DNA of 62,831 nucleotides from a virus: positions 1 to 62,831 of the IMG/VR virus record IMGVR_UViG_3300025598_000039; one strand, written 5' to 3'. This document shows, one piece after another, positions 41,258 through 56,561 of this stretch. Position 1 is the stretch's first letter. Each line of letters starts with the position of its first letter. Below the pieces are notes generated by a model. That model was given only the letters and a program-made list of their open reading frames with translations. It ran no database searches and was not told the DNA's origin. A program made the position numbers and the translations under genes.

Positions 41258-41995
41258 GTGAGTTCAGTCAAAAAAAATAAAAAAATCTTACTTTTAGTTG
41301 GTCCTCAAGGCAGCGGTAACCATTTATGGAGCAAAGTCTTTGCGCTACACAAGGATGTTAATGGTTGGGAAGAACTGCTAGACGAAAGTGATCCCGAAAA
41401 TTATTTGATACCACATTACCGTGAACCACATATCCATATTTGGGAAGATATTCCTGCTATTACAGAAGAAATTATGGGTGACAAAGATTATCTTGTAGTA
41501 AGTGCAAGTTTGCCATATTGGAAGAGCAATAAACTTTCAATTCCTGATATTGATGGTTTTGCAGAACATGTTCAAAAGTTAGGCATAGAAGTTATCGTTG
41601 GTGTAATTGGGCGTGATCGTAATATTCTAACTAAGCAACAAACTCGTCTGCGTGGGTCGCCTAGTTTTGGTGTTATGACACAAGTTGTGCATAGACTACT
41701 AACTGCTACACCATTTTTCTTAAGCACAGAACTGCTATATCTTTATCGCCAAAGTTATCTTGAATCACTATCCAAGTGGTTAGACTTTCCTATTGATTAT
41801 GAAAATCCACACGTAGAACACATTTTGCGTGAAGATGCAAATGCAAAATATGTAACTCACGCTGAAAATCCATTTGTAGATGCTATTGTACGTTCTCGTG
41901 GAAATAAATTGCGTGATGAAAAGAATAAAAACAATATTATAAAACTCGTAACAAATGAAAGTGTTACAGTGCAAGAAGGTAAATCAAATGAATAA
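41258..41995 (+). CDS. P-loop protein, possibly sulfotransferase-like
   Basis: This 245-aa protein starts at a GTG with an AAAGGAA ribosome site. Residues about 9-22 read ILLLVGPQGSGNHLWS, a P-loop-like motif in which the usual K/T is replaced by N-H. That occurs in sulfotransferase-type 5'-phosphosulfate loops. A second region VIVGVIGRDRNILTKQQTRLRGSP could be the 3'-phosphate contact. An APS-kinase-like gene lies 870 nt downstream, which fits PAPS use, but the assignment is tentative. It leads the run of genes to 48836. Confidence 0.45.
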   Translation: MSSVKKNKKILLLVGPQGSGNHLWSKVFALHKDVNGWEELLDESDPENYLIPHYREPHIHIWEDIPAITEEIMGDKDYLVVSASLPYWKSNKLSIPDIDGFAEHVQKLGIEVIVGVIGRDRNILTKQQTRLRGSPSFGVMTQVVHRLLTATPFFLSTELLYLYRQSYLESLSKWLDFPIDYENPHVEHILREDANAKYVTHAENPFVDAIVRSRGNKLRDEKNKNNIIKLVTNESVTVQEGKSNE

Positions 41996-42104
41996 TTTTA
42001 TTATGCCAAGTTGTGGTAGCGGGTTTATGGACAAGGCATACTATACTTGTCCATCTCCCACCAAAAAAGCCAAGTCCATGGACTCGCTTCCTCAACTTGT
42101 ATAA
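41988..42104 (+). CDS. Possible 38-aa small protein
   Basis: This short ORF, MNNFIMPSCGSGFMDKAYYTCPSP..., overlaps the end of the P-loop gene and has a good AGAAGGT site 7 nt before its ATG. It has two cysteines and no membrane segment. The region after it holds a hairpin (CAACTT 42093-42098 with AAGTTG 42103-42108) that overlaps its stop. It could be a real small protein or a leader peptide for the oxygenase gene at 42131. Confidence 0.35.
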   Translation: MNNFIMPSCGSGFMDKAYYTCPSPTKKAKSMDSLPQLV

Positions 42105-42130
42105 GTTGAAAACAAGTATAGGAGTAAAAA

Positions 42131-42847
42131 ATGTTAGATAAAAATGAGTTTGAAAAAGTGCCAAGTGCGTGGCAATATGGCAAAGATAATAGCGTTTATC
42201 ACTATGATACTACAATTCGTGATATGCGATGGGATACAGTCGTTGGTCTAGGAAAATTTGGTGGTGATTGGACTGATGAATTAAATGAAGCTATTTCTGC
42301 TGCTAAGCCAGTCAATATTACTAATCGTCGAGAAGACTGGGCATATCGTGGAGATCGTAACCCATATAGTGGTCAAGTAAAGTTCAATAATGCAGAACGT
42401 AATGATTTTGCAGCAGTTGGTGCCGATCCAGAAATGACAATCTTTAGAGTAAATGCTAATCTTTCACCTACATTTGCCAAGATGGTTGATATGATTGGTT
42501 TAGGAGATAGCGAAAGCAGATTACATATTCAATTTACAGGCGAAGCATTTATTGGTCATGTTGATAGATTTGAACATAATTGGCCAGATCATGATTTAGA
42601 TGATTTGATACGTATCGGTGTTATGCTTAAAGACTATGAGCAAGGACAATTTTTTCAATTTGGTAACCACTGTTATCAGTTTTGGAGAGCAGGTGATATC
42701 CATACTTTTTCAAATAAACATGTGCCGCATTATACAGCAAACAGTGGACTATCACCACGAGTAACATTATTCACAACTGGTGTCATTACTGATAAAACAC
42801 GTGCATTTTTGAAAAAAGCAAAACATACGGCAGAAATCTTGATTTGA
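42131..42847 (+). CDS. 2OG-Fe(II)/cupin-type oxygenase, first of two paralogs
   Basis: This 238-aa protein has the pattern LHIQFTGEAFIGHVDRFEHNWP with His143-x-Asp145, then YEQGQFFQFGNHCYQFWRAGDIHTFSNKHVPHYTANSGLSPRVTLFTTG with His197/His200 and Arg. This is the HxD...H...R layout of 2OG-dependent (aspartyl/JmjC-like) oxygenases. The N terminus IRDMRWDTVVGLGKFGGDW matches the paralog at 48936-49715. A GGAG ribosome site precedes the ATG. It heads a group with an APS-kinase-like protein and a nucleotidyltransferase, so it probably modifies a small molecule or surface component. Confidence 0.7.
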   Translation: MLDKNEFEKVPSAWQYGKDNSVYHYDTTIRDMRWDTVVGLGKFGGDWTDELNEAISAAKPVNITNRREDWAYRGDRNPYSGQVKFNNAERNDFAAVGADPEMTIFRVNANLSPTFAKMVDMIGLGDSESRLHIQFTGEAFIGHVDRFEHNWPDHDLDDLIRIGVMLKDYEQGQFFQFGNHCYQFWRAGDIHTFSNKHVPHYTANSGLSPRVTLFTTGVITDKTRAFLKKAKHTAEILI

Positions 42848-42867
42848 GAAAAGAAAGAAGTAACTAG

Positions 42868-43353
42868 ATGGCAATTATCAACAAAAAAATTCTAATCATG
42901 GGATTACCAGGTTCGGGTAAAACGACTTTGGCTCGTGATCTTGCTAAAAAACTAAAGGCTGTCCACTGGAATGCAGATGCAGTGCGTGCTAGATTGAATA
43001 GTCATTTAGGATTTAGTGAGGCTGATCGTATAGAACAAGCCCGTAGAATGGGTTGGTTATGTGATCAAATTGTGGCAGCAGGTTCGTGGGCAGTTGCAGA
43101 TTTTATATGTCCCACACCAGCTACTCGTGCGGCCTTCGGGCCTGCTACCACAATTTGGGTTGATACAATTACTACTGGTAGATTTGAAGATACAAATAAA
43201 ATGTTTGTGCCGCCTGAAAATTATAACTGGCGAGTTGATACACAAAACTCAGAATTTTGGTCAAAAGTTATCGCAGAAGAGCTTGATTTAGATGAAAAAC
43301 CCAGTTGGTTTAAAGCATTATTTTGGGGAGAACGAAATTTTGTGGGAAAATAA
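42868..43353 (+). CDS. Adenylylsulfate (APS) kinase-like protein
   Basis: This 161-aa protein has a Walker A GLPGSGKTT (residues 12-20), then VHWNADAVRARLNSHLGFSEADRIEQARRMGWLCDQIVAAGSWAVADFICPTPATRAAF. This is close to the CysC pattern (NxDxVRxxLNxxLGFS..DRxENxRR...VsxFIsPyxxxR). CysC phosphorylates APS to PAPS, the sulfuryl donor. The C-terminal lid is shorter and divergent. No ATP sulfurylase is present in the window, so either the host supplies APS or the kinase acts on another nucleotide. The next gene overlaps it. Confidence 0.7.
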   Translation: MAIINKKILIMGLPGSGKTTLARDLAKKLKAVHWNADAVRARLNSHLGFSEADRIEQARRMGWLCDQIVAAGSWAVADFICPTPATRAAFGPATTIWVDTITTGRFEDTNKMFVPPENYNWRVDTQNSEFWSKVIAEELDLDEKPSWFKALFWGERNFVGK

Positions 43354-43699
43354 AAAACCAACTGTGCAAATGCTAGGACGTTGGCAACCATGGCATGATG
43401 GTCATCTTGCGTTATTTAAGAGAGCGCATTCTAAGACGGGTCAAGTAATGATCATGGTTCGTGATGTTGGCGGAACAGATAATAATCCTTTTGATTACAA
43501 CTTTGTCAAAGAACGCATCATTAAAGAGTTAGAATTGCAAGGATATAAATTTAAACACGATTTTATAGTTGAACTTGTTCCAAATATTGTTAACATTACA
43601 TATGGTCGTGATGTTGGGTACAAAATTGAGCAAGAAGTATTTGATGCGGAAACACATGCAATAAGTGCAACTAAAATTAGAAAAGAGATGGGATTATGA
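43292..43699 (+). CDS. Nucleotidyltransferase (HxGH family)
   Basis: Up to 135 aa. The HxGH motif is in MLGRWQPWHDGHLALFKRA and the C-terminal ISATKIRKEMGL is the ISxTxIR motif, as in NMN/pantetheine-phosphate/glycerol-phosphate nucleotidyltransferases. The ATG at 43292 would overlap the kinase gene by 62 nt. A TTG at 43340, with GGGGAG nine bases upstream, gives 119 aa and only a 14-nt overlap, and is my preferred start. The product could couple a nucleotide to a small phosphorylated acceptor. The last 14 codons are repeated before the second TctA gene, which marks a duplication. Confidence 0.72.
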   Translation: MKNPVGLKHYFGENEILWENKKPTVQMLGRWQPWHDGHLALFKRAHSKTGQVMIMVRDVGGTDNNPFDYNFVKERIIKELELQGYKFKHDFIVELVPNIVNITYGRDVGYKIEQEVFDAETHAISATKIRKEMGL

Positions 43700-45153
43700 C
43701 TTTAGACCCACAAATATTACTGCTTACGTTATATGGCACTCTTTTTGGTTTTATATTTGGTATTATACCTATTGCTGGCGCAACAACCGCACTAATTACA
43801 CTTTATGGCTTTTTAAATTATTTTCAAGGTCATGCATATAATTTATTAGCATTTACAACTGCTATAGTTGTAAGTTGCACAGTTGGTGATCTTTTTGCAA
43901 GCATCGTTATGAATATACCGGGCGGTGGTGGTAGTGCTGCCACTATGGTTGATGGTTTTCCTTTAAGTAAACAAGGACAAGCAGCACGTGCGCTAAGTGC
44001 AGCAATTTTTAGTAGTTGTGGTATGGGGTTTGTATGGGGTGTTCTTGTATTTGTATTTTTGCCATATTACAGCAAAGTTGTGATGCTATTTGGTATTCCT
44101 GAACTTTGGGCATTTGTGTTGATGGCACTAGCATGTATTTGTTTTGTTAATAACAAATATTGGGTTCGTGGTATCATAGGTTTATTATTAGGAACTTTTT
44201 TAGGCTTAGTTGGTACTAATCCAGTTACAAATAGTTTAAGATTTACTGGTGGATGGATGTATCTCGGAGAAGGTATACAACTTTTACCTTTAATGGCAGG
44301 TGTTTTGGCTATGCCAGAAATATTAGAAGCAATTAATTTTCGTGGTAATTTTATTGCTCAGGGAAATGACCAGTGGAGTCAAATTAAACAAGGTTATTTA
44401 GATTTTTGGAATAACAAATGGATAGCAGTTCGTGGTAGCATAGTTGGTGGAATAGTTGGCTTGTTACCTGGAATAGGTGGACCTATTGTTGATTGGTTAG
44501 CCTATAGTAATGTTGTTGCTAGTAACAAAAACGAGCAAATACCTTTTGGTCAAGGTAATATAAAAGGTGTAATAGGACCAGAAAGCAGCGTTCTAGCACA
44601 AAAAAGCACAGCATATATACCAACTGTTTTATTTGGCATACCAGCGGCACCTTTTGAAGCTATTATCATGTCACTTCTTTATGGTGTTGGTTTAGATTTA
44701 GGTAGCAGAAGAATTCTTACTGATACGGCATTTTTTAGCACCTTGACTACAAGTTATATGTTAAGTCTGCTATTAACATTTTTTATTTCTATAATTTTTA
44801 TTCGGTATGCTGTTAATATCAACAAAATTCCATTCAAGTATTGGGCAATACCACTGCTTGGAGTTATAACTTGGAGTTGTGTTCAGTACACTGGTGGTTG
44901 GGAAGACTATGCTATGCTAGCTATGTGTTGCACGCTTGGCATAGTTTTAAAATACTTGAAAATTAGTCGAGCGAGTTTTATAATAGGTTTTGTAATGGCA
45001 CCAAGAGTAGAAGCACTTACTAGACAATATATAGCAATTTATGACTGGATTGATTTATTAAAACACCCTATCGCATTAATGCTCTTAGGATGCGGTATTG
45101 TGGCCATACTGTATGGTATGATTTACTCTAAGAGCACTATCGAATATGTATAA
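43696..45153 (+). CDS. TctA-family tripartite transporter large membrane subunit (copy 1)
   Basis: This 485-aa, very hydrophobic protein has about ten or more membrane segments. It has family features: an N-terminal GFIFGIIPIAGATTALITLYGF hairpin, VGDLFASIVMNIPGGGGSAATMVDGFPLSKQGQAARAL, and internal repeats such as GIVGLLPGIGGPIVDWLAYS. TctA is the permease of the tripartite tricarboxylate transporters that work with a periplasmic TctC receptor and a small TctB. It is coupled to the nucleotidyltransferase by ATGA and followed by a TctC-like gene. No TctB is visible, so the host may supply it or it may be dispensable. Confidence 0.88.
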   Translation: MTLDPQILLLTLYGTLFGFIFGIIPIAGATTALITLYGFLNYFQGHAYNLLAFTTAIVVSCTVGDLFASIVMNIPGGGGSAATMVDGFPLSKQGQAARALSAAIFSSCGMGFVWGVLVFVFLPYYSKVVMLFGIPELWAFVLMALACICFVNNKYWVRGIIGLLLGTFLGLVGTNPVTNSLRFTGGWMYLGEGIQLLPLMAGVLAMPEILEAINFRGNFIAQGNDQWSQIKQGYLDFWNNKWIAVRGSIVGGIVGLLPGIGGPIVDWLAYSNVVASNKNEQIPFGQGNIKGVIGPESSVLAQKSTAYIPTVLFGIPAAPFEAIIMSLLYGVGLDLGSRRILTDTAFFSTLTTSYMLSLLLTFFISIIFIRYAVNINKIPFKYWAIPLLGVITWSCVQYTGGWEDYAMLAMCCTLGIVLKYLKISRASFIIGFVMAPRVEALTRQYIAIYDWIDLLKHPIALMLLGCGIVAILYGMIYSKSTIEYV

Positions 45154-45164
45154 AGGAGAATTAA

Positions 45165-46229
45165 ATGTTTGATATTAAAAAATCAATTCTAGCATCTGCT
45201 ATTGCACTAGGTTTTGTTACTTCTGCAAAAGCTGATTATAGAATTATTATTCCACAACAACCAATCCAACCATGGATTGAAACTATTGCACCAGAATGGA
45301 GCAAAAAGTTAGGCGAAACTATTGTTATTGACTATCAACCAGGTGCTATGAGTGTGCCAGGTGTTGTAAAGTTTGATAAGACTGATCGTTTTGATAACAA
45401 AGTAATTTTACAGTTTTTGAATGGGTCAGCAGAAGCACTTCTCACACAAGGTAATGCAGACTTTGATATTAGCCATTGGGCACCGCTTGGTTTAAACCAC
45501 GTTACAAATACGGTTGGTTACAATAAGACAATTGATCCTTACAAAGAAAAAATTCGTATGCCATATAGTCCATCACCAGCAACAAATGCTGATGCAATTG
45601 GTGTAGTTCTACAAATATGCGGACCAGATAAAACATTTGAACAATATCTTGAATGTTACAAAGAACGCATGAAGTATGTAACAAGCATGCAAACAAATGA
45701 AGCAAATCTAGCCTACCAAAAAGGCGAGTTGAATGTAAATGCTAATGGTAATGCTGGCTATCGACAACAATTGCTTCCGATGGAAATCAACACTACCTGG
45801 TATACAAGCAATCAAATGGATTTAAAGACAGGAAAAGATTCAGAAAAAAGTGTAGAAACATTCCCTGTTTATAACGACGTCTATAAAGCAAAATGGGGCA
45901 AACTTCCTAATAACGATCTTTGGGAAGGTTATGAATTGCTAAGAAATTATCGAGATGTATTACAAAAGAGTCTTTGGGTCAATAAAGATAATCCAAACCG
46001 TCAAAAACTAATTGATAGTTTAAAAGCAACGTTAAATGATCCAGATGTTCGTAAAAAAATTGAAGAAAAAATTGGACCATTTCCGTGGATTTATGGTGAT
46101 GATGTTTATAAAGCAATTGACAGATTGCACGAACAAACTACGGAACGTGCTTTAAAAACAGTAGTTCGTTGGAATCATGAAGCATTTGGTTTTGATACTG
46201 TGTTCAAGGCAGAGTTAGTAAAGAAGTGA
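45165..46229 (+). CDS. TctC-like periplasmic solute-binding receptor (copy 1)
   Basis: This 354-aa protein has a clear signal peptide: KK, a hydrophobic stretch, and a cleavage site after SAKA before DYRIIIPQQP. The mature protein has the TctC/Bug layout: RIIIPxxPxxPWIETIAPEWSKKLGETIVIDYQPGAM, QFLNGSAEALLTQG, and a ligand region rich in Asn and Gly. The ligand type (carboxylate, sulfonate or other) cannot be read off. An AAGGAG ribosome site precedes the ATG. It is the partner of the upstream TctA and a paralog of 47766-48836. Confidence 0.78.
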   Translation: MFDIKKSILASAIALGFVTSAKADYRIIIPQQPIQPWIETIAPEWSKKLGETIVIDYQPGAMSVPGVVKFDKTDRFDNKVILQFLNGSAEALLTQGNADFDISHWAPLGLNHVTNTVGYNKTIDPYKEKIRMPYSPSPATNADAIGVVLQICGPDKTFEQYLECYKERMKYVTSMQTNEANLAYQKGELNVNANGNAGYRQQLLPMEINTTWYTSNQMDLKTGKDSEKSVETFPVYNDVYKAKWGKLPNNDLWEGYELLRNYRDVLQKSLWVNKDNPNRQKLIDSLKATLNDPDVRKKIEEKIGPFPWIYGDDVYKAIDRLHEQTTERALKTVVRWNHEAFGFDTVFKAELVKK

Positions 46230-46234
46230 AAAAT

Positions 46235-46265
46235 TTATTGCATGAGTTTGAAACTCATGCAATAA
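46235..46265 (+). repeat. Inverted repeat between TctC copy 1 and TctA copy 2
   Basis: TTATTGCATGAGT (46235-46247) pairs perfectly with ACTCATGCAATAA (46253-46265), a 13-bp stem with a 5-nt loop, without a T run after it. Its right arm lies within the vestigial nucleotidyltransferase sequence. It may pause or process the polycistronic RNA. Confidence 0.7.
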
Positions 46266-46299
46266 TTGCAACTAAAATTAGAAGAGAAATAGGATTATG
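46247..46299 (+). pseudogene. Vestigial 3' end of the nucleotidyltransferase gene
   Basis: In frame, this stretch reads EFETHAIIATKIRREIGL-stop. It matches the end of the nucleotidyltransferase at 43292-43699 (DAETHAISATKIRKEMGL-stop), including the same ATGA overlap with the following TctA start. The DNA of the last 45 bases differs at only a few positions. It has no start codon and no upstream part, so it is a fragment carried along when the transporter pair was duplicated. Confidence 0.85.
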
Positions 46300-47751
46300 A
46301 ACTACGAACATCTAGCACTTATGTGTATCTTTGGAACTATGTACGGTTTTATATTTGGTATCATACCAATTGCAGGTGCTGGTGTAGCACTTCTTACCAT
46401 ATATTCTTTTTTAGATTTGTTTCGTGGTGATGCCTATGGTTTAGTAGTTTTTACAACCAGTATTGTTGTGAGTTGCACAATAGGTGATCTTTTTGCTAGT
46501 ATTGTTATGAATATACCTGGTGGTGGTGGAAGTGCAGCTACTATGGTTGATGGGTTTCCACTTTCTATGCAAGGAAAAGCAAGTCGTGCACTAGGTGCTG
46601 CTGTTTTTAGTAGTTGCAGTATGGGAATATTGTGGGGAGTTTTAGTATTTTTCTTTCTGCCTTATTATGGTAGTTTTGTAAAATATTTTGGCATTCCTGA
46701 AATGTGGTCATTTGTAATGCTCAGTATATCTTGCATATGCTTTGTAAACAACAAATATTGGCTACGTGGTATTTTTGCATTAGGATTAGGTATATTTTTT
46801 GGCATGGTAGGCACAAATCCACTTACTGCTAGTCCTAGATTTACTTTTGATTGGCTATACCTACAAGATGGAATTCAAATGGCACCACTGATGGCTGGCA
46901 CAATGGCTATTCCAGAAATATTATTTGTATTATGGAAAACGGGAAGCACAGCGCCAGGTAGCAAAGACAACTGGAAACAAATCCTTGAGGGATTTTGGGA
47001 TACTTGGCATAACCGCTGGATAGTATTTCGTTGCGGAGTCATCGGTGGTGTTATTGGATTATTACCTGGTATTGGTGGTCCAATTGTAGATTGGTTAAGT
47101 TATAGCAGTGTTGTTGCTAGTAACAAAAACGAAACAATACCTTTTGGCAAAGGCAACATCAAAGGTGTAATTGGTCCTGAAAGTAGTGTGTTGGCACAAA
47201 AAAGCACAGCATATATTCCAACCGTCTTGCTAGGTATACCAGCAGCACCTTTTGAAGCCGTTATCATGTCACTTTTTATTTCAGTTGGACTTGATTTGGG
47301 TAGCACAAGAATATTGACAGACTGGAAATTTTTTGATAGTTTAAGTTTTGGTTATATGGGTAGTTTGTTTATTACTATATTCTTAGCATTATGGTTTATT
47401 CGTTATGCTGTTTATATTAACAAGATACCTTTTAAGTATTGGGTTATTCCGCTGCTTATGCTGATTGTATGGAGCAGTGTGCAATATACTCGTGGGTGGG
47501 AAGATTATGTAGTTTTGTTATTCTTTGCAGTTCTTGGAATAGTAATGAAAGTTCTAAAATTAAGTCGTGCTAGTTTTATAATTGGCTATGTTTTAGCAGC
47601 TAGACTAGAATCGCTTACGGTAACATTTTTACAAATGTATAAGCCTGTTGAATTATTATATCATCCAATAGCAGTATTTTTGTTATTGAGCGGAGTTGTG
47701 GCAATAGGTTATGGAATGTTTTTTGGTAAAACGCAATTAGAATATCATTAA
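46297..47751 (+). CDS. TctA-family tripartite transporter large membrane subunit (copy 2)
   Basis: This 484-aa protein is a close paralog of 43696-45153, with long identical blocks: FGIIPIAGA, VVSCTxGDLFASIVMNIPG, WxVIPLLxxIxWSxVQYTxGWEDY. The N-terminal ~10 residues and the segment after residue 205 differ most. It has the same multi-pass topology. It starts at an ATGA overlap with the vestigial nucleotidyltransferase end. It keeps all the TctA motifs, so both copies look functional. Divergent loops may mean a different substrate. Confidence 0.88.
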   Translation: MNYEHLALMCIFGTMYGFIFGIIPIAGAGVALLTIYSFLDLFRGDAYGLVVFTTSIVVSCTIGDLFASIVMNIPGGGGSAATMVDGFPLSMQGKASRALGAAVFSSCSMGILWGVLVFFFLPYYGSFVKYFGIPEMWSFVMLSISCICFVNNKYWLRGIFALGLGIFFGMVGTNPLTASPRFTFDWLYLQDGIQMAPLMAGTMAIPEILFVLWKTGSTAPGSKDNWKQILEGFWDTWHNRWIVFRCGVIGGVIGLLPGIGGPIVDWLSYSSVVASNKNETIPFGKGNIKGVIGPESSVLAQKSTAYIPTVLLGIPAAPFEAVIMSLFISVGLDLGSTRILTDWKFFDSLSFGYMGSLFITIFLALWFIRYAVYINKIPFKYWVIPLLMLIVWSSVQYTRGWEDYVVLLFFAVLGIVMKVLKLSRASFIIGYVLAARLESLTVTFLQMYKPVELLYHPIAVFLLLSGVVAIGYGMFFGKTQLEYH

Positions 47752-47765
47752 GAAAGGAAAAAAAT

Positions 47766-48836
47766 ATGCGCAAGTTACTACTCGGATTAACTTTGGCAAT
47801 CGGTCTTACTACACAGGCTCTTGCTGATTTCAGAATTATCACTCCACAGAATCCACCACAGGATTGGATGGAATCACTTATTCCACTTTGGAAACAAAAA
47901 TTAGGTGAAAACCTATTAATTGACTATCAACCAGGTGCATGGAACCTACCAGGTCTTAACAAGTTTCAGGCTAGTGATCGTTTTGATAATAACGTTATGG
48001 CTGAAATTATTAATAGTGCAGCAGAAGCATATCTAACACAAAAGGCTGGCACCTATGATTTCCATGATTGGTCACTTGTTGGCATGCAACAATATACTAA
48101 TTGGGTAGAAATCCACGCGGGTTTTGATCCATATAATAGTCATATTAAAATTAGCCATAAGATGGGTGCTGGCAGTAATGCTGATGCTATGGCAATTGCA
48201 CTACTAGTATGCGGTCCTAAGAAGACTAAGGAAGAATATAAGACTTGCTTTGATCAAAAAGTTACTTATATTAAAGGAATGCCAGATCAGGACAGCGGTC
48301 TTGCATTTAATAATGGTGAATTAGATGCTACTAGCGGTGGTCTTGCAAACTGGTTTGTTAAATGGAAGTTTGATGAAGGTAAAGGCAAGTTCACAACTTG
48401 GTTCATTCATGACCTTCTTGATATGAAGACTGGTAAGGACGAAGAAAAAAGTATTCTTGGTGTCCCAACTGTAAATCAGTTGTACAAGCAACGTTGGGGA
48501 GTAGAACCAAGTGGTGAGTTTTATGATGCTTATCGACTAGTTCGCACATATCGTGATGTTCTACAAAAAAGTATTTGGGTAAACAAGGGTAACCCAAATC
48601 TTGAAAAACTTCAAACAGCATGGAGAGCAGTTCTAAGCGATCCAGAAACTCGTGCTAAGTTAGAAGAACGTAATGGTGCATTGCCGATTTTTATCGGTGA
48701 AAAGGAAGCAGCAGTTGCTTACAAAACGCTAGAATCAATCACTACAGAAAAGGCATACAAAGACCTTATCTGGGTTGAAATTAATATGCTGGGTATGCCA
48801 GATAGCGTCTACAAACCACAACTAGTCAAGAAATAA
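47766..48836 (+). CDS. TctC-like periplasmic solute-binding receptor (copy 2)
   Basis: This 356-aa protein has a signal peptide (RKLLLGLTLAIGLTTQALA, cleavage before DFRIITPQNP). The mature sequence parallels copy 1: DWMESLIPLWKQKLGENLLIDYQPGAWNLPG, EIINSAAEAYLTQ, DLLDMKTGKDEEKSILG and LVRTYRDVLQKSIWVNKGNPN. The pocket region differs more than the termini. An AAGGAA ribosome site lies just before the ATG. A terminator follows the gene, which ends the transporter transcription unit. Confidence 0.78.
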   Translation: MRKLLLGLTLAIGLTTQALADFRIITPQNPPQDWMESLIPLWKQKLGENLLIDYQPGAWNLPGLNKFQASDRFDNNVMAEIINSAAEAYLTQKAGTYDFHDWSLVGMQQYTNWVEIHAGFDPYNSHIKISHKMGAGSNADAMAIALLVCGPKKTKEEYKTCFDQKVTYIKGMPDQDSGLAFNNGELDATSGGLANWFVKWKFDEGKGKFTTWFIHDLLDMKTGKDEEKSILGVPTVNQLYKQRWGVEPSGEFYDAYRLVRTYRDVLQKSIWVNKGNPNLEKLQTAWRAVLSDPETRAKLEERNGALPIFIGEKEAAVAYKTLESITTEKAYKDLIWVEINMLGMPDSVYKPQLVKK

Positions 48837-48843
48837 TTAATAA

Positions 48844-48878
48844 GAAGGAGTTGCTACAAACAACTCCTTCATTCTTTT
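48844..48878 (+). terminator. Intrinsic terminator after the transporter genes
   Basis: GAAGGAGTTG (48844-48853) pairs with CAACTCCTTC (48861-48870), a perfect 10-bp stem with a 7-nt loop. It is followed by the T-rich ATTCTTTTA. Confidence 0.85.
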
Positions 48879-48935
48879 ATTGTGGTCATTATAAAATAAA
48901 AAAAATAACTAATTTAATATTAGTTGGAGAAAATT

Positions 48936-49715
48936 ATGAAAGTTATAACTGAAACAGAAACACTAGAAAAAATGGAGAAATGGGTCTCTAATTCAAATAA
49001 TGTAGAGATAGCAACACCTGAAAATACATCGAACTGGGATCATGAGTTTTCGGCTTGGGAAAGCCGCAAAGCAACAAGTAGCTACCATTTTTCAACAAAA
49101 GTTCAAGATTACCGTTGGGATACTGTAATTGGTCTAGGTCATATTACACCTACCTGGCAAACCGAATTACAAGAAGCAATCGAAAGTGCTCAACAAGTAA
49201 CTGCTTGGTCTAGAAACGGAACTGGTCCTAAACCAGGTAAAAAATATCATATAGGTGAATATAATGATATGATTAATATGGGAGTTGATCCAAGTAAGCA
49301 AATATTCTTGCGAGTAGAAAGAAATATTGCGCCTGTGTTTCAACGTGTTGCCGATGCTTTCGGTTTGACAGATATGGGCGAAGTTCGACTTCATATTCAA
49401 CACGCTGGCGAAGCATTCTTAGGACATGTTGATGGATTCCATCATAATTGGCCAGGTGTTGACCTTGATGATTTAGTAAGAATCCTAGTCTGTCTAAATG
49501 ATTATGAACAAGGTCAATTTTTTCAATTTGGAAATCATATGTGGCAGAACTGGCGTGCTGGCGATGTAGTCACATTCAGTAACTTGCATGTTCCGCACTA
49601 TACAGCAAACTGCTGCATGACTCCTCGTTGCCAATTATTATTGACAGGCGTTAAAACTGAAAAGACAAATGCTTTTCTTAAAAAATTACGCCATAGTAAA
49701 ACAGTTGAAGTATAA
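48936..49715 (+). CDS. 2OG-Fe(II)/cupin-type oxygenase, second paralog
   Basis: This 259-aa protein is a paralog of 42131-42847: YRWDTVIGLGHITPTWQTEL, VRLHIQHAGEAFLGHVDGFHHNWPGVDLDDLVRI, YEQGQFFQFGNHMWQNWRAGDVVTFSNLHVPHYTANCCMTPRCQLLLTG. The HxD and distal His are kept. The ATG at 48936 was chosen because GGAG lies 6 nt before it; a TTG 12 nt upstream is in frame. The leader has a hairpin AACTAAT / ATTAGTT directly before the GGAG site. The two oxygenases flank the transporter block, as if an oxygenase was part of the original repeated unit. Confidence 0.7.
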   Translation: MKVITETETLEKMEKWVSNSNNVEIATPENTSNWDHEFSAWESRKATSSYHFSTKVQDYRWDTVIGLGHITPTWQTELQEAIESAQQVTAWSRNGTGPKPGKKYHIGEYNDMINMGVDPSKQIFLRVERNIAPVFQRVADAFGLTDMGEVRLHIQHAGEAFLGHVDGFHHNWPGVDLDDLVRILVCLNDYEQGQFFQFGNHMWQNWRAGDVVTFSNLHVPHYTANCCMTPRCQLLLTGVKTEKTNAFLKKLRHSKTVEV

Positions 49716-49727
49716 CTTAGTCAAAGT

Positions 49728-49756
49728 AGTAGAGTTGGGAAATCAACTCTACTTTT
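49728..49756 (+). terminator. Intrinsic terminator
   Basis: AGTAGAGTTG (49728-49737) pairs with CAACTCTACT (49744-49753), a perfect 10-bp stem with a 6-nt loop, followed by TTTT. It ends the oxygenase transcript. Confidence 0.88.
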
Positions 49757-49772
49757 AAAAAGGAAATTAAAA

Positions 49773-50408
49773 ATGAAGTATATCTTTCTTACAGGTGCGC
49801 CAGGTTCTAAAGCAAGTAGTGTTGCTAGAAATATCTATTTTTCAAGCAATATTGATCAAAGCGATTTTAAACGTGAATATGATTACTATAAAACAATTCG
49901 TGGCAAAACTCAATTAGCACATTTTGGCGTTTATTTTGATCCTACGCTTGAATATGGAACGCACTTTGATAAGTTCGAAACATTTACCAAAGATGAATTA
50001 GAAGCAGAGTTCGACAGACCATTTACTGGACGTGGCATTAAACTTATTAAAGGTCATAGTTTATGCCATCACTTAGATTTTATCAGGAAAAACTGGCCTG
50101 ATTGTCCGATTGTTATGTGTGATCGCAGTGATGACAGTTGTTTTGGATGGTGGTTGCGTTGTGGTGGTTTCAATATTGCTTATCCAAGTTTTGACAGATT
50201 CCCTACACAAGATGATGTTGTAAAAGCAATTGATGAACAAAATGCTGATATGAGAAAGTTTATTAAGTCAAGTGGCGCTCTTCGTATTCATGATAATATG
50301 GATTTGTGTGAAAAAATAGGTATTACAAGACCACCTATGACGCCGCATAACTCAACATTATTACAAAATTATAGTGCCAACGATGTTGAAGTTTATGTGA
50401 GTTTATGA
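49773..50408 (+). CDS. P-loop protein, possible sulfotransferase (tandem copy 1)
   Basis: This 211-aa protein starts MKYIFLTGAPGSKASSVARNIYFS. GAPGSKxSSVA resembles the phosphosulfate-binding loop of sulfotransferases or a short P-loop. A second conserved block, IVMCDRSDDSCFGWWLRCGGFNIAYPSF, lies where a 3'-phosphate-contacting Arg/Ser strand would be. The paralogs at 50410 and 51129 share both blocks. An AAGGAAAT ribosome site precedes the ATG. With the APS-kinase-like gene upstream a sulfuryl-transfer role is reasonable, but it is inference. Confidence 0.5.
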   Translation: MKYIFLTGAPGSKASSVARNIYFSSNIDQSDFKREYDYYKTIRGKTQLAHFGVYFDPTLEYGTHFDKFETFTKDELEAEFDRPFTGRGIKLIKGHSLCHHLDFIRKNWPDCPIVMCDRSDDSCFGWWLRCGGFNIAYPSFDRFPTQDDVVKAIDEQNADMRKFIKSSGALRIHDNMDLCEKIGITRPPMTPHNSTLLQNYSANDVEVYVSL

Positions 50409-50409
50409 T

Positions 50410-51132
50410 ATGAAATATGTTTTTATAACTGGGGTAGCTGGTAGTTGTTGGGGGTGGCCTGTAACATATTTGCAGGTAGCAAGCAATATTATAGATTGCA
50501 GCAATAAAAAACCATGGCGAGCAAATACTAATATTCCTTGTGCAGCTACTCATAGAGATAATGTTTATGCTGGTCCTTATAATGAAATTGGTGAAATGTT
50601 TGACCAATTGTCTTTGTATTATAAAAAACAACATATATTTGATGAAATTGATCGTGCATACGAACCAACAACCGAACATAAATTAAGAATAGTAAATTGT
50701 CACTGGTTTTCTTATCAATTAGATTGGATAGCAGAGAATTTACCAGAAGTAGATATTATATTAAATTTACGAAATCCAGAAATGGCAAATAATGGTTGGT
50801 TAAAAAGTGGTGGTTGGAATATTGAATATCCTAGTTATAAGTGGTATAATAATACACAAAATTTGTGTAGACAATCACAAATTGAACACAAACTTATGCA
50901 GCAATTTGTTAAAAAACATAATCTTGCAGTGAACTCAGGTTGGAACGCTGATTGGTTTGATATAAACTGGCCAGAAGTAGCACCATTTATAGATAAAAGC
51001 AAGTTTCAAGAAAAAATAAGTTCTACAGTAGGACAACCAGGCGCTCCACCTATTCATGTAGGATATGAAAGTTTGAATTGGGCATTTTATAAAGGAAAAA
51101 AGAGCACACCTATAGAAAGTGAAAAAAAATGA
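50410..51132 (+). CDS. P-loop protein, possible sulfotransferase (tandem copy 2)
   Basis: This 240-aa protein is the most diverged of three tandem paralogs. The loop reads FITGVAGSCWGWPVTYL, without the usual Lys. The second block is DIILNLRNPEMANNGWLKSGGWNIEYPSYKWY, where LRNP...W matches the RxP-type motif seen in sulfotransferases. The start is one base after the previous stop, and its stop overlaps the next ATG (ATGA). The three are therefore a coupled series. The C-terminal ~40 residues (GAPPIHVGYESLNWAFYKGKKSTPIESEKK) are specific to this copy. Confidence 0.48.
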   Translation: MKYVFITGVAGSCWGWPVTYLQVASNIIDCSNKKPWRANTNIPCAATHRDNVYAGPYNEIGEMFDQLSLYYKKQHIFDEIDRAYEPTTEHKLRIVNCHWFSYQLDWIAENLPEVDIILNLRNPEMANNGWLKSGGWNIEYPSYKWYNNTQNLCRQSQIEHKLMQQFVKKHNLAVNSGWNADWFDINWPEVAPFIDKSKFQEKISSTVGQPGAPPIHVGYESLNWAFYKGKKSTPIESEKK

Positions 51133-51758
51133 AATATTGTTTTTTAACTGGTGCACCAGGTAGTAAATGGAGTAGTGTTGCTAAAAATATCTATTGGTCA
51201 GATGATTTTGACCATAGCGATTATAGCGATGCAAGAACATATTATAATAATGTAGATAATAAAACAAACTTGTTGCATTTTGGTTCTTACTTTGATCCAC
51301 AAATGGAGTTTGGAAGTTTTTTTGATAAAATTAGTGAATATTCTATAGAAGAGATTGAAGAAGAACTACAAAAACCTTTTACTAACGGTAATATTAAACT
51401 TATTAAAAGTCATATGTTATCTCTAAACCTTAACTTTATATCACAAAATTTTAGTAACAGTGCAATAGTATGTGTACTACGCAACGAACAGTTATGTCTA
51501 AATTGGTGGATGAAAGCAGGTGGATTTGATATAACATACCCAAATTATTCATTTTATAAAAATAGTGATATTATGTATAATTGGATTAATTTGCAAAATC
51601 GTGCAATTAAAGAATTTGTTGCAAATAATAATTGCACAGAAGTAAAAAACAATTATGAATTGTGTGATAAGTTAGGAATAAGTTATCCACCAATTGAGCA
51701 TAAACAAAATTATGTAGAAGATGCTATTACTGTTTATGTTCACCAAAACGCAGCATAA
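51129..51758 (+). CDS. P-loop protein, possible sulfotransferase (tandem copy 3)
   Basis: This 209-aa protein is very close to copy 1: MKYCFLTGAPGSKWSSVAKNIYWSDDFDHSDYSDARTYY against the same segment there, and NLNFISQNFSNSAIVCVLRNEQLCLNWWMKAGGFDITYPNYSFY. Both carry HFGxYFDPxxEFGxxFDK, which may be substrate-specific. It overlaps the preceding gene by 4 nt. The end is convergent with, and overlaps by 32 nt, the - strand gene at 51727-52023. Confidence 0.5.
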   Translation: MKYCFLTGAPGSKWSSVAKNIYWSDDFDHSDYSDARTYYNNVDNKTNLLHFGSYFDPQMEFGSFFDKISEYSIEEIEEELQKPFTNGNIKLIKSHMLSLNLNFISQNFSNSAIVCVLRNEQLCLNWWMKAGGFDITYPNYSFYKNSDIMYNWINLQNRAIKEFVANNNCTEVKNNYELCDKLGISYPPIEHKQNYVEDAITVYVHQNAA

Positions 51759-52216: not shown

Positions 52217-52290
52217 TGGAGCGGACTAGGGGAATCGAACCCCTCGCTGCAGCTTGGAAGGCTGCGGTATTACCACTATACGAAATCCGC
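52217..52290 (-). tRNA. tRNA-Gly(TCC)
   Basis: Full cloverleaf on the - strand: acceptor GCGGATT/AGTCCGC, anticodon stem GCAGC/GCTGC with loop CTTCCAA (anticodon TCC), T loop TTCGATT. Discriminator T and an encoded CCA. Confidence 0.95.
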
Positions 52291-52410
52291 TTATTTTATA
52301 AGGTCAGTAATATTTACGTCAGAAAATAACCACTTGCAAAGAAGTGCAAACCAAAGTACTTTTGTAACAAAATCAAAAATTTTTTCAAACATTCTAAACA
52401 TCTTATACAT
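52291..52410 (-). CDS. Possible 39-aa membrane peptide
   Basis: The ORF between tRNA-Gly and tRNA-Ser begins MYKMFRMFEKIFDF and contains a hydrophobic segment VTKVLWFALLCKWLF that could span the membrane once. The stop abuts the 5' end of tRNA-Gly. The ribosome site is weak, and Met4 or Met7 may be the real start. It is supported only by fitting the gap exactly and by its hydrophobic pattern. Confidence 0.35.
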   Translation of the reverse strand: MYKMFRMFEKIFDFVTKVLWFALLCKWLFSDVNITDLIK

Positions 52411-52428
52411 CTTTGCTACTTTCTAAAA

Positions 52429-52512
52429 TGGCGGAGGTACAAGGAATCGAACCATCAACCTTGCGGTGGCAGAGTTTTCAAGACTCTTTGAGCACCTTGC
52501 TCGCATACCTCC
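52429..52512 (-). tRNA. tRNA-Ser(TGA)
   Basis: 84 nt with a long variable arm. Acceptor GGAGGTA/TACCTCC, anticodon stem AGAGT/ACTCT with loop CTTGAAA (anticodon TGA). Discriminator G, CCA encoded. Confidence 0.95.
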
Positions 52513-52516
52513 ATAA

Positions 52517-52592
52517 TGGTGCCGCTTATCTGATTCGAACAGATCACCTATGAATTACTAGTTCATTGCTCTACCAAATGAGCTAAAGCGGC
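52517..52592 (-). tRNA. tRNA-Thr(AGT)
   Basis: Canonical cloverleaf: acceptor GCCGCTT/AAGCGGC, anticodon stem ATGAA/TTCAT with loop CTAGTAA, so the anticodon reads AGT. T loop TTCGAAT, discriminator A, CCA encoded. An A at position 34 is rare in bacterial and phage tRNAs outside Arg(ACG). Confidence 0.9.
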
Positions 52593-52601
52593 ATATTTGA
52601 T

Positions 52602-52678
52602 TGGTGCCCCAGGAGAGATTTGAACTCCCAACATTCGGAACCTAAATCCGACGCCTCTACCAATTGGACTACTGGGGC
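52602..52678 (-). tRNA. tRNA-Leu(TAG) with short variable loop
   Basis: Acceptor GCCCCAG/CTGGGGC, anticodon stem TCGGA/TCCGA with loop TTTAGGT (anticodon TAG). T arm GGGAG/CTCTC, discriminator A, CCA encoded. The variable region is only ATGTT (5 nt), whereas leucine tRNAs normally have a long variable arm. The D-arm sequence matches the tRNA-Leu(CAA) at 59674-59750. Confidence 0.88.
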
Positions 52679-52699
52679 ATTATTAGTAATATATATCAA

Positions 52700-53161
52700 T
52701 TATACATTCTTGTCAATCTTTTTCTTTTTGCTTTTTCCAGCATGTGTCTCTGTCTGTGCATGACAATTAGGGCAAATAATTCTTAAATTTTTAATATCAT
52801 TATTATAGTGATTACCATCAATATGATCTAATTCTAATGGCGCAGGTTTCCCATTCCATTCAGTTATGCTACATATTTCACAACGATAATCTTTAATTTT
52901 ATCTTTAAGTAATTTTAATCTCAATTTGTGAGCAGAAACATAATCTTTTTTGGCATATGTAAGAGCATCAATATATTTTGGGTCTGATTTTTTGCCTTTG
53001 CTTCCTTGATTACCAGAATAATTGATATTTAACTTTTTAAGATAGGTTTCAAGTGTAGAAGTTTTACATTTTAATTGTTTACAAATGTATGCTTTTGGTT
53101 CATTATTAGTAATCCAATTCAGTATTTCTTCTTTTCTTTCTAGAATATCTAATCTTTGCAT
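52700..53161 (-). CDS. HNH homing-type endonuclease
   Basis: This 153-aa protein has a C-terminal HNH domain: CEICSITEWNGKPAPLELDHIDGNHYNNDIKNLRIICPNCHAQTETHAG. It shows the DH, the asparagine and the final His, plus two CxxC zinc pairs. The N-terminal ~50 residues (ERKEEILNWITNNEPKAYICKQLKCKTSTLETYLKKL) form an HTH. This layout is typical of free-standing phage HNH nucleases inserted between genes, here at the edge of the tRNA array. An AAGGAAAT site lies just upstream. The leader can form a weaker hairpin around a TAAATA box (53175-53212). Confidence 0.88.
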   Translation of the reverse strand: MQRLDILERKEEILNWITNNEPKAYICKQLKCKTSTLETYLKKLNINYSGNQGSKGKKSDPKYIDALTYAKKDYVSAHKLRLKLLKDKIKDYRCEICSITEWNGKPAPLELDHIDGNHYNNDIKNLRIICPNCHAQTETHAGKSKKKKIDKNV

Positions 53162-53249
53162 TATATTTCCTTAAATGGTAGACTTGCTATTATAGTATTT
53201 AGCGTGTATACCAATTTATATTATTTTTTAAAAAAATAAATAGTTATGC

Positions 53250-53351
53250 ATGTCAAGCGAAAAGTATATAGATTATCTACTTTATTCATTTATTTTAGCC
53301 CATACTTTCTTGGGATGCACAATCATAGCACAAACATTAGCAAAGTTTTAA
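53250..53351 (+). CDS. Possible 33-aa membrane peptide
   Basis: The ORF MSSEKYIDYLLYSFILAHTF... is one hydrophobic helix with polar ends, ending 1 nt before the ATG of the DUF4337-like membrane protein. Position and hydrophobicity suggest a small membrane partner. The ribosome site is weak, so it may be chance. Confidence 0.35.
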   Translation: MSSEKYIDYLLYSFILAHTFLGCTIIAQTLAKF

Positions 53352-53352
53352 C

Positions 53353-53976
53353 ATGGACCTTAAACAAATTCAAGGATTATTAGACATGGTTATGAAAGAT
53401 AAAAACGGTAAAGTTCTAAGTCGTAGCGAAGGTGAGGCAGTTCTTAAAGGTCTTGCTTCTATTACAATCACAATCTTTGCCGCACTTCTTGCAATCACAT
53501 CTTGGCTTGGTGGGCAAGTAAGTGGTAGAATTATGGCTGATAATATTGAACTTGGCGATGTATGGAGTTTCTATCAAGCCAAATCTATTAAACAAAACAT
53601 GTATCAAATAAACCTTGAAGATTTAAAAGTCCAAATTGCTGATCCACAAACAGATGCAAGTTTGAAACCAGCATTACAAGCACGTGTTGACAATTACCAA
53701 AAGTATATTGACGTTCTTGAAAGTGATCCAAAGGGTGAAGGCAAAAAAGAAATTATGGCACGTGGTCGTGCACTAGAAGCAGACCGTGATAGTGCTAAAA
53801 AACGTAGTCCGTTTTTTGGTATGGCAGGCACAGTAATTCAAATTGCTATTATCTTTTCAACCACTGCTATCCTTGCCGTTAGTATGGCACTGTGGTATAG
53901 CAGCATTGCGGTTGGTATTATTGGTTTGATTGTTCTAGCAGATGGTATCTGGTATTTCTTTCCACTGCCGTTTTAA
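53353..53976 (+). CDS. DUF4337-like membrane protein
   Basis: This 207-aa protein has an N-terminal segment LASITITIFAALLAITSWLGG, a soluble helical middle starting with DVWSFYQAKSIKQNMYQINLEDLK, and two C-terminal membrane segments (VIQIAIIFSTTAILAVSMALWY, AVGIIGLIVLADGIWYFF). The WSFYQAKSIK motif and three-segment topology are those I associate with DUF4337 of bacteria. The function is unknown, so a role in the host envelope is only suggested. It converges on and overlaps the GIY-YIG gene by 4 nt. Confidence 0.65.
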   Translation: MDLKQIQGLLDMVMKDKNGKVLSRSEGEAVLKGLASITITIFAALLAITSWLGGQVSGRIMADNIELGDVWSFYQAKSIKQNMYQINLEDLKVQIADPQTDASLKPALQARVDNYQKYIDVLESDPKGEGKKEIMARGRALEADRDSAKKRSPFFGMAGTVIQIAIIFSTTAILAVSMALWYSSIAVGIIGLIVLADGIWYFFPLPF

Positions 53977-54602
53977 TTATTTTGCTGTACCAACTTTTTT
54001 AATGCTCTGGTCTTAGCCAAAGATTCTCTTATTTTTTGTTTTTGTTCTTCCGTCTTTGGTTTACCATATTGAGAATTTTTTTCACCTGTCTGGCGAGTAT
54101 GACCTTTTAACTTTTGTTTTGTTTCTTCTGTATGTTTTTTGTTTTTCCATATACCTTCAGGATACTTTTCTTTTTGTTTTATTACTGCATCTAAAGATTT
54201 ATTTTTCATCATGTCTTTAAATTTTTTATTGTAATCAGGATTATTTTCACGTCTTTTCTTTATTGTTTCCTGTGCGTTTTTTGCTGATAACTTTCCATGA
54301 TTTTCATAAATGTTTTTACCAGTGCTGTTTATATAACTGAATCCACCTTTTCCGCCTTCACATAAATTATAAGTTTCTTCGGATATTATAACTAATTTTT
54401 TTTCTGCGGTATTCATATCTTTTTCATTATCAAATATATATAAAATTTCTTTTATAAAGTTTTCTAAACCGTGCTTTTCAATTGCTCTTTTAAGCAACTT
54501 GCCACTACCCATATAACCATCATTAAGGTCTTTGGTTTGATGTTTTCCGATATAATATTTACCGTTTAATTTGTTTGTAATTTTATAAATTGTATAAAAC
54601 AT
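53973..54602 (-). CDS. GIY-YIG homing endonuclease with NUMOD3 repeats
   Basis: This 209-aa protein starts MFYTIYKITNKLNGKYYIGKHQTKDLNDGYMGSGKLLKRAIEKHGLENF. It shows the IY and YIG motifs and a YxGSGxxLxxAIxKHG region like T4 Seg proteins. The C-terminal half is lysine-rich with DNA-binding repeats HTEETKQKLKGHTR and KTEEQKQKIRESL (NUMOD3 type). Its start region has a hairpin that covers the AAGGG site, with a late promoter inside. This matches the known regulation of the GIY-YIG enzyme I-TevI of T4. Confidence 0.9.
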   Translation of the reverse strand: MFYTIYKITNKLNGKYYIGKHQTKDLNDGYMGSGKLLKRAIEKHGLENFIKEILYIFDNEKDMNTAEKKLVIISEETYNLCEGGKGGFSYINSTGKNIYENHGKLSAKNAQETIKKRRENNPDYNKKFKDMMKNKSLDAVIKQKEKYPEGIWKNKKHTEETKQKLKGHTRQTGEKNSQYGKPKTEEQKQKIRESLAKTRALKKLVQQNN

Positions 54603-54607
54603 TAAAT

Positions 54608-54660
54608 GTGCCCTTGTTGTAAAATAGTCTTACCTATTGCTATTTATACAACAAGGGCAC
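54608..54660 (-). promoter_or_regulatory. Late promoter inside a 14-bp inverted repeat covering the RBS of the GIY-YIG gene
   Basis: GTGCCCTTGTTGTA (54608-54621) is the exact reverse complement of TACAACAAGGGCAC (54647-54660). On the - strand TATAAATA (54648-54641) begins at the inner end of the first arm. The second arm carries the AAGGG ribosome site 8 nt before the ATG at 54602. Readthrough RNA would fold and mask the site. A late transcript would lack the first arm. Confidence 0.85.
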
Positions 54661-54665
54661 TTGTG

Positions 54666-54738
54666 CTGCTCAGGCTGGACTCGAACCAGCAACCCTTCGC
54701 TTAACAGGCGAACGCAACTGCCATTGTGCTACTGAGCA
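54666..54738 (-). tRNA. tRNA-Asn(GTT)
   Basis: Acceptor TGCTCAG/CTGAGCA, anticodon stem TTCGC/GCGAA with loop CTGTTAA (anticodon GTT), T loop TTCGAGT. Discriminator G. The following bases are CAC, so CCA is not encoded, unlike most tRNAs here. Confidence 0.92.
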
Positions 54739-54792
54739 TAACTTATATTCTTAATATATATCAACTTTGCAATTCTGTAAAGTATTATTTTT

Positions 54793-54869
54793 TGGAGCCT
54801 ACGAAGGGACTCGAACCCCTAACCCTTGCGTTCGAAGCGCAATATTCTGATCCATTGAACTACGTAGGC
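54793..54869 (-). tRNA. tRNA-Arg(TCG)
   Basis: Acceptor GCCTACG/CGTAGGC, anticodon stem TTGCG/CGCAA with loop CTTCGAA (anticodon TCG), T loop TTCGAGT. Discriminator T, CCA encoded. Confidence 0.93.
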
Positions 54870-54876
54870 TTAAATA
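54870..54876 (+). promoter_or_regulatory. Late-type box TTAAATA 4 nt before an ATG
   Basis: TTAAATA followed by TTGT and the ATG at 54881 begins at the base after the antisense tRNA-Arg. No ribosome binding site fits between. Confidence 0.45.
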
Positions 54877-54880
54877 TTGT

Positions 54881-55492
54881 ATGAGTGATAATCCAACATG
54901 GCCATTTGTGCCACTAGAAAATCAACACAATAAAGTTTTAGATAGTAATCCTGCAATTATATTATATTATCCATTAACAGGCGGTGAGTTTTTAGCAAAA
55001 ATTTTGAGTTGTAGTCGCAGTTTGTATGGTGATGATTATATAGAATATCTTAAATCTTACTATGTGCCAAAAGGTAGTGATTGGCTTGATACCTATGAAG
55101 ATGGTCATCATCCAAAATTATATCCAGCACATGCTCGTTACTTTACATTTAATGAGTGGTTGCAATTCGATAAAATAGTTTACATAAATTATGAATTAAC
55201 TGAACGTGAAACAAAGTGGTTGTTATATAGAAAAAACTTTATTGTTAATAGTGTTAGTAATGATTTATTAGCCGATCTACAAATAAAATATGAAAAAGAA
55301 TTAATTAGTTTTTTAGATAATAAAAAAACTTATTATAATTTTCAACTTACTACTTTTTTAAACTCACAAGATTTTGTTACAAATGTTAATAATTGCTTGC
55401 AGTTTTTAGAATATGAAACAATAAACGAAAATGATATTGCTGCATTATATAAAACTTATATGCAGTTAAATTTCAAAATAGGTGGTTGGTGA
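54881..55492 (+). CDS. Hypothetical protein, TGG-motif family
   Basis: This 203-aa protein has AIILYYPLTGGEFLAKILSCSRSLYGDDYIEYL at residues about 27-60. It parallels VNHVAGTGGTFICQVISASPSLSGAEYSEKML at 57232 and VNHLSGTGGSFLCQVLSISPDLSEQDYIDKI at 58033. HPKLYPAHARYFTFNEWLQFDKIVYINYEL matches WHPRVFRMHTDDV...LHLWHKFVHISFD there. The TGGxF loop could bind a phosphate, as in sulfotransferase-like folds, but the family was not recognised. Members are scattered through the tRNA array on the opposite strand to the tRNAs. Confidence 0.55.
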   Translation: MSDNPTWPFVPLENQHNKVLDSNPAIILYYPLTGGEFLAKILSCSRSLYGDDYIEYLKSYYVPKGSDWLDTYEDGHHPKLYPAHARYFTFNEWLQFDKIVYINYELTERETKWLLYRKNFIVNSVSNDLLADLQIKYEKELISFLDNKKTYYNFQLTTFLNSQDFVTNVNNCLQFLEYETINENDIAALYKTYMQLNFKIGGW

Positions 55493-55505
55493 ACGCTGTG
55501 GGGTT

Positions 55506-55934
55506 CTATTTTATAAGACCAGAATATCTATGGCTTTCTTTATTTCCATTTCCTTTGTTTAATGCTTTCCATGTTGGCGTTAAAGAATGACAATTTGGAC
55601 AAAGAACTCTTAGATTTTCTTCTTTATTGTTAGAACAATCTCCATCAATATGATCTATTTCTAATGGTGACTTTCCTGTTTTGGGGTTTACTTTATTCCA
55701 TCCACATTCGGAGCAACTATAATTATTTTTTTCTAACAAATAATTTCGTAAAGCAGGTTTAATTCTAAATCCTACTTTATACCCTTTATCTGTTCCATTA
55801 AACCAATCTTCTAATACTTTTTTAGTTTTTGACTCACCGTTACATTTATTACTACAAAATATTCCGTATGAACTTTTTCCATGTGTAAAATTAACGCCGC
55901 AATTTTTACAAACACTTTTTATTTTACTTGGCAT
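55506..55934 (-). CDS. HNH homing-type endonuclease
   Basis: This 142-aa protein has an N-terminal zinc ribbon-like part (CKNCGVNFTHGKSSYGIFCSNKC). The HNH domain reads CSECGWNKVNPKTGKSPLEIDHIDGDCSNNKEENLRVLCPNCHSLTPTW. It has the same LExDHIDGxxxNN...LRxxCPNCH core as the gene at 52700, but a different N-terminal domain. AAAGGAAA lies upstream of the ATG, next to a hairpin that encloses a late promoter. It is probably mobile, inserted between tRNA-Lys and the hypothetical gene. Confidence 0.88.
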   Translation of the reverse strand: MPSKIKSVCKNCGVNFTHGKSSYGIFCSNKCNGESKTKKVLEDWFNGTDKGYKVGFRIKPALRNYLLEKNNYSCSECGWNKVNPKTGKSPLEIDHIDGDCSNNKEENLRVLCPNCHSLTPTWKALNKGNGNKESHRYSGLIK

Positions 55935-55935
55935 A

Positions 55936-55970
55936 GGTAGAGTTTCCTTTTATTATATTTATACTCTACC
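55936..55970 (-). promoter_or_regulatory. Late promoter enclosed by an 8-bp inverted repeat
   Basis: GGTAGAGT (55936-55943) and ACTCTACC (55963-55970) are exact reverse complements. On the - strand TATAAATA (55963-55956) starts in the first arm, and the second arm lies just before the ATG at 55934. The AAAGGAAA site lies at the inner edge of the second arm. Confidence 0.75.
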
Positions 55971-55979
55971 CATATTTTT

Positions 55980-56063
55980 TGGAGGATCGGATGGGACTCG
56001 AACCCATGATGTTTGTATACTAGGTTAAAAGCCTAGGCCGTTCGCCACTACGGTAACCGATCC
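55980..56063 (-). tRNA. tRNA-Lys(TTT)
   Basis: Acceptor GGATCGG/CCGATCC, anticodon stem CTAGG/CCTAG with loop CTTTTAA (anticodon TTT), T arm ATGGG/CCCAT with loop TTCGAGT. Discriminator T, CCA encoded. The variable region is about 12 nt, longer than usual for Lys. Confidence 0.88.
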
Positions 56064-56240: not shown

Positions 56241-56246
56241 GTATTT

Positions 56247-56322: not shown

Positions 56323-56331
56323 AATAAACTT

Positions 56332-56419: not shown

Positions 56420-56466
56420 AATATCTTTACATTACCACATTTAAATTATTTGTCAAGAGGAAAGTT

Positions 56467-56540: not shown

Positions 56541-56561
56541 ACATAACTATCTATCATTTTT

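Follow-up and report, generated by a model that had tools for sequence, protein, structure and literature searches.

The locus considered here lies in a window of 62,831 bases, that is, the whole stretch of DNA analyzed, a linear IMG/VR record in which genes for a tail sheath, a tail fibre and virion structural proteins identify a large contractile-tailed phage. Two complete TctA-TctC permease-receptor pairs, placed head to tail as the original prediction had described, belong to a metabolic-looking run made of a kinase, a nucleotidyltransferase (NT), the two pairs and then genes without a database match (Table 1). The evidence base is a single metagenomic contig. In other parts of the window, we could observe 19 tRNA genes, every one on the minus strand and with small genes in between (52217 to 60928), and a gene (34774 to 36387) whose product belongs to a PHROG family with the annotation tryptophan halogenase (E value of 5e-149).

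Table 1. Features of the tandem TctA-TctC locus and of its upstream neighbors
Feature	Coordinates	Strand	Evidence and remarks
P-loop kinase, adenylyl-sulfate-kinase-like	42868..43353	+	PF01583, E 1.3e-14; PHROG 10255 'kinase'; overlaps NT in another frame
NT, cytidylyltransferase-like; source of the scrap	43292..43699	+	PF01467, 23.3 bits (cut-off 21); PHROG 10255
NT end repeated at 46250-46299	43649..43698	+	45/50 identical
TctA1 permease, 485 aa	43696..45153	+	PF01970, 264.1 bits; start overlaps NT stop (ATGA)
TctC1, predicted secreted solute-binding protein, TctC/Bug fold, 354 aa	45165..46229	+	AlphaFold2 pLDDT 85.8; no Pfam match
24-codon open frame holding the NT scrap	46226..46300	+	GTG overlaps TctC1 stop (GTGA); TGA overlaps TctA2 start (ATGA)
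Perfect inverted repeat at the joint	46235..46265		Arms of 15 bp, 1-bp spacer; RNA hairpin of -17 kcal/mol
NT scrap (putative fossil), last 16 NT codons, running straight into TctA2	46250..46299	+	45/50
TctA2 permease, 484 aa	46297..47751	+	PF01970, 263.5 bits
TctC2, predicted secreted solute-binding protein, TctC/Bug fold, 356 aa	47766..48836	+	AlphaFold2 pLDDT 83.6
Terminator-like hairpin 3' of the second pair	48844..48870	+	z -5.0

Both pairs are intact, with the TctA members recognized by profile and the TctC members by fold. The PF01970 scores of the two permeases exceed by far the cut-off of 28.9 bits, which qualifies both as permeases of the tripartite tricarboxylate transporter (TTT) type. 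The permeases are 65% identical to each other at the protein level and the receptors 41 to 42%, and the DNA alignment of the two copies gives only 69% identity. As for the receptors, PF03401, the TctC sequence family, has no match in the window at an E value of ≤1 and recovered only one of 12 phage receptors (E value of 0.086), while the receptor family profile reaches BugD with an E value of 0.0022. The best PDB matches obtained with Foldseek were BugD, Bug27, and TphC for the TctC1 model and TctC (4x9t), a BugE-type protein (2dvz), BugD, MatC, and Bug27 for the TctC2 model. On the strength of these models, the receptors are assigned to TctC by fold and not by sequence profile. The Bordetella Bug receptors (BugD, 2f5x; Bug27, 2qpq; BugE-type, 2dvz) and TphC, MatC, and AdpC share the same two-domain fold, but their identity with the window receptors is only 10 to 15%.

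The original prediction also stated that both copies keep all motifs and signal peptides. The leaders are indeed present and of the Sec type (AKA-DY and ALA-DF), but the statement fails for the motifs, since PFxAGGxxD, the signature loop of TTT receptors that is nearly ubiquitous in the family (PMC5812351), is absent from both TctC1 and TctC2. In the pocket comparison, which was based on alignments and folds, the other phage receptors retain a PGxGT loop where PFxAGGxxD would sit, and the first ligand loop of the window receptors is 3 residues shorter than theirs. Furthermore, the receptor identity of 41% found at a TctA identity of 65% is to be compared with an average of 59% for comparable pairs, the comparisons being not independent of each other. 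It follows that the receptors have diverged unusually far for their permeases, which fits either different ligands or relaxed constraint; we consider that TctC1 and TctC2 probably bind different ligands.

Solute transporters of this kind had been regarded as unexpected in a phage, a view that the IMG/VR scan contradicts, given that it returned 78 contigs with a related TctA, nearly always beside a TctC, and 204 stretches with a related TctC; viral tctA had moreover been reported before. When TctA was clustered at 90% identity, 40 of the 41 phage clusters had a TctC no more than 4 kb away, all the loci examined in these clusters had one TctA each, and no TctC without TctA was seen among the loci covered on both flanks. 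The tandem is absent from the 68 other TctA-bearing records that were searched over their whole length: 66 have a single copy, and two (G049, locus L201, and G080, locus L240) have a second, diverged TctA at a distance of about 50 kb and about 42 kb, respectively, from the first. The TctA-TctC module is widespread in phages, many aquatic ones having it once, and the tandem is unusual. In another phage locus (L329:3168-9041), one TctA is accompanied by two TctC-like receptors, possibly a further instance of receptor expansion. Most of the virus records searched are fragments, and near-identical ones may be missing from the set. Outside these records, the GenBank phage entries gave only weak TctA matches (coverage of ≤61% and identity of ≤32%), several of them in records whose phage origin is questionable, yielded no TctC, and were discarded; scans of bacterial genome contigs returned no close relatives, and plasmid TctA proteins reach at most 34%.

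In agreement with the original prediction, no TctB was detected in the window with PF07331; the same search found none in 18 TctA-bearing virus records, a result to be read with the poor conservation of TctB and the fragmentary records in mind.

The gene order kinase-NT-TctA-TctC is common to the loci L003, L005, and L203. The kinase and the NT are fused into one protein in L003 (1062 to 1856) and L005 (9008 to 9799) and occupy two overlapping frames at 42868 to 43699 in the window; a single gene frame-shifted in the contig was considered and rejected, since in near relatives the two are also in different frames, so that the arrangement looks like a real gene split. The same gene families accompany TctA-TctC across phages (41258 to 51758 in the window): those like the genes at 42131 and 48924, 41258, and 49773 occur near it (5-kb flanks) in 21, 11, and 23 of 30 clusters, respectively. 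The genes at 42131 and 48924 may be 2OG-oxygenase-like; PDB searches with 42131, 41258, and 49773 gave nothing usable.

Immediately upstream of TctA2, the end of the NT gene occurs a second time. The original prediction had set this repeat, including the ATGA junction, at 46247 to 46299; the repeat and the shared ATGA are confirmed, with 45 of 50 bases identical in an ungapped alignment, and only its start had been placed 3 bases too early. The 45 bp that precede each TctA are thus similar, and the refuting condition set by the original prediction is not realized. Chance similarity was rejected, as the second-best place in the window for the 50 bases matches at 28 of them, and so was a regulatory element repeated elsewhere in the window, as only two sites match the core of the scrap with up to 3 mismatches. 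The match ends sharply, identity falling to 10/26 just before it and to 15/34 just after the ATG. Scraps of the NT tail are not a recurrent feature either, since among 110 other NT loci no second copy of the tail exceeds 31/50, and an exact-pattern scan of IMG/VR for the joint gave 0 matches, near-identical records being possibly absent from the search set.

The scrap and the NT gene of the window resemble each other (45/50) more than either resembles the nearest phages. With two of these (L020 and L022) as the reference for polarizing the changes, read from the aligned sequences over few sites, 4 of the 5 differences fall on the scrap, 3 of them nonsynonymous, with the Ser of ISATKIR among these, and the remaining one, on the NT side, is synonymous. 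The NT ends of related phages match at 42 to 43 of 50 positions, with differences that are all synonymous. Judging from this pattern, the scrap is a dead piece of the NT gene of this very lineage, which would have lost its coding constraint. Its first part constitutes the right arm of the inverted repeat at the joint. It is possible to hypothesize that the 24-codon frame in which it lies could couple the translation of TctC1 and TctA2, even though such a frame may also arise by chance.

With regard to the origin of the tandem, the two window TctA proteins and the two window TctC proteins are sisters among 76 TctA and 85 TctC sequences, respectively (SH-aLRT of 99), with long TctC branches, and the relation was recovered at 100/100 also in smaller trees; a second pair derived from a different phage clade was thus rejected. 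Most of the phages nearest by NT (L020 to L024 and L026 to L028; 74 to 88% amino acid identity) pass from NT directly into a gene like that at 49773 (SU), without TctA, an arrangement suggesting that both pairs and the gene at 48924 were either inserted at the end of NT in the window or lost from these relatives. Across the NT loci L020 to L099, the 3' end of NT (43696 in the window) borders 38 gene families in 93 loci and appears as a strikingly variable junction. A single-cassette phage of either type with a closely similar NT was not found in a search set from which near-identical records may be missing (best TctA, 61%; best TctC2, 37%).

The original prediction maintained that the duplicated segment began inside the NT gene. 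The second copy does carry an NT end, but a single old duplication, with the fossil decaying alongside the genes, is not borne out by the relative ages. Four-fold degenerate sites are identical at 60 of 136 positions in TctA (44%) and 25 of 61 in TctC (41%), or 43% for both genes together, and these values, being close to the chance expectation of 0.385, indicate saturation at synonymous sites between the pairs. Under neutrality, a scrap as old as this would be expected to keep 55 to 57% of its bases on its own branch, with 66% as the upper bound, while 46 of 50 were kept (P of about 1e-5 at the upper bound). The 90% identity of the scrap, against 43% at four-fold sites, is not what a neutral flank of an in-place duplication would display. 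By these estimates, a neutral leftover of the duplication from which the pairs diverged would not be preserved so well. Three accounts fit the conflict: divergence of the pairs ahead of their joining, selection on the scrap as a leader, or renewal of the scrap by gene conversion.

Joining of diverged cassettes is the account that we favor, for two reasons: the preservation of the scrap extends to its farther half, beyond the start signal (25/27; P of about 0.001 under neutrality), and the 15-bp inverted repeat falls exactly at the joint. A second, already diverged TctA-TctC cassette of the same phage lineage would have been joined behind the first by recombination, probably recently, with the left edge of the event within the NT gene end; the joint would be marked by the 50-bp scrap, which would now serve as the leader of TctA2, and by the inverted repeat, which may be an end-joining or fold-back scar. 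We judge it about an even chance that the phage possesses this uptake system twice, by way of a diverged second cassette joined through the NT end and with ligands that are probably different.

An old in-place tandem duplication, extending from the NT end to TctC, is a serious alternative to which we assign a clearly lower probability. According to it, the pairs diverged where they stand, and the 50-bp scrap was preserved either through selection on the TctA2 start signal, the coupling mini-ORF, or the hairpin, or through gene conversion with the NT end as donor; either process would also explain the preservation of the scrap, which counts against the joining. The duplication would accommodate the sister grouping of the pairs, which leaves out every other sequence, the position of the scrap right against the ATG, the overlap of the 24-codon frame with both the TctC1 stop and the TctA2 start, and the strong hairpin at the scrap. 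However, it has to cope with the preservation of the farther half of the scrap, and the NT ends of related phages vary at synonymous sites, so that no constraint at the nucleotide level can be seen there.

An assembly or amplification chimera, with a wrong fusion of contigs from two related strains that each had one NT-TctA-TctC set, appears improbable. The tandem is known from one metagenomic contig, a palindrome lies exactly at the joint, and no other record has the tandem or the joint, as such an artifact would predict. Nevertheless, the copies are only 69% identical in DNA, and the NT ends share no exact run of more than about 17 bases, too short for the usual assembly overlap. The 3 amino-acid-changing differences of the scrap fit a sequence that persisted for some time in a real genome as a dead copy.

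Turning to function, both pairs are predicted to transport solutes. TctC1 and TctC2 would be exported to the host periplasm, where they would bind small solutes, probably carboxylate bearing, for delivery to the inner-membrane permeases TctA1 and TctA2; these would take the solutes up along an ion gradient while the infection proceeds. A TctB encoded by the phage might be unneeded or replaced by that of the host. The loss of the canonical ligand loop in the receptors counts against this uptake and, together with the missing TctB, would suit pairs that are not importers, with the TctC-like proteins acting as periplasmic sensors or decoys, or blocking host uptake or superinfection, and TctA as an accessory. 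Orphan Bug receptors without membrane partners are in fact common in some bacteria (PMC5812351). Such a role seems very unlikely to us, since the TctA-TctC pairing is nearly constant across phages and the TctA frames in the records are full length and free of internal stops.

Compared with the known TTT system TctCBA (TC 2.A.80; tctCBA in Salmonella and bctCBA in Bordetella), the phage pairs share a TctA family permease and an adjacent secreted receptor with the TctC/Bug fold. Different from TctCBA, they have no detectable TctB, their receptor lies outside the Pfam TctC family and lacks PFxAGGxxD, the gene order is TctA-TctC, and they occur in a phage and in tandem. Closer to them are the single TctA-TctC cassettes of IMG/VR phages (L003, L004, L005, and others), whose TctA proteins are 52 to 61% identical to those of the window, but which have one pair and no NT scrap. 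Viral tctA has been described in SUP05 viral contigs, together with a 2OG-FeII oxygenase among the viral genes (PMC4164917), and tricarboxylate transport genes have been described in a virus scaffold from an oxygen-minimum zone (PMC8115048); the portions of these two articles considered here report tctA-type genes but describe neither a receptor-permease cassette nor a duplication. Only tentatively, and as less likely than not, we suggest that aquatic phages own a TctB-free two-component class of binding-protein-dependent transporter with a receptor that has lost the classic ligand loop, and that a phage can widen its range of ligands by capturing a second, diverged cassette beside the first at the variable NT-end junction. 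Since Bug27 and Bug69 bind quinolinate (PMC11452294), one could speculate further that NAD synthesis by the neighboring kinase- and adenylyltransferase-like genes receives a pyridine carboxylate through the cassette.

The usual reading of metabolic genes in phages is that they reprogram what the cell already contains. The recurrent receptor and permease cassette suggests that some phages also alter the uptake of the infected cell. In particular, a tandem with fast-diverging receptors offers a concrete and testable case of a phage that diversifies what it makes the cell take up, and the way in which such cassettes become stacked can be seen from the scrap at the joint.
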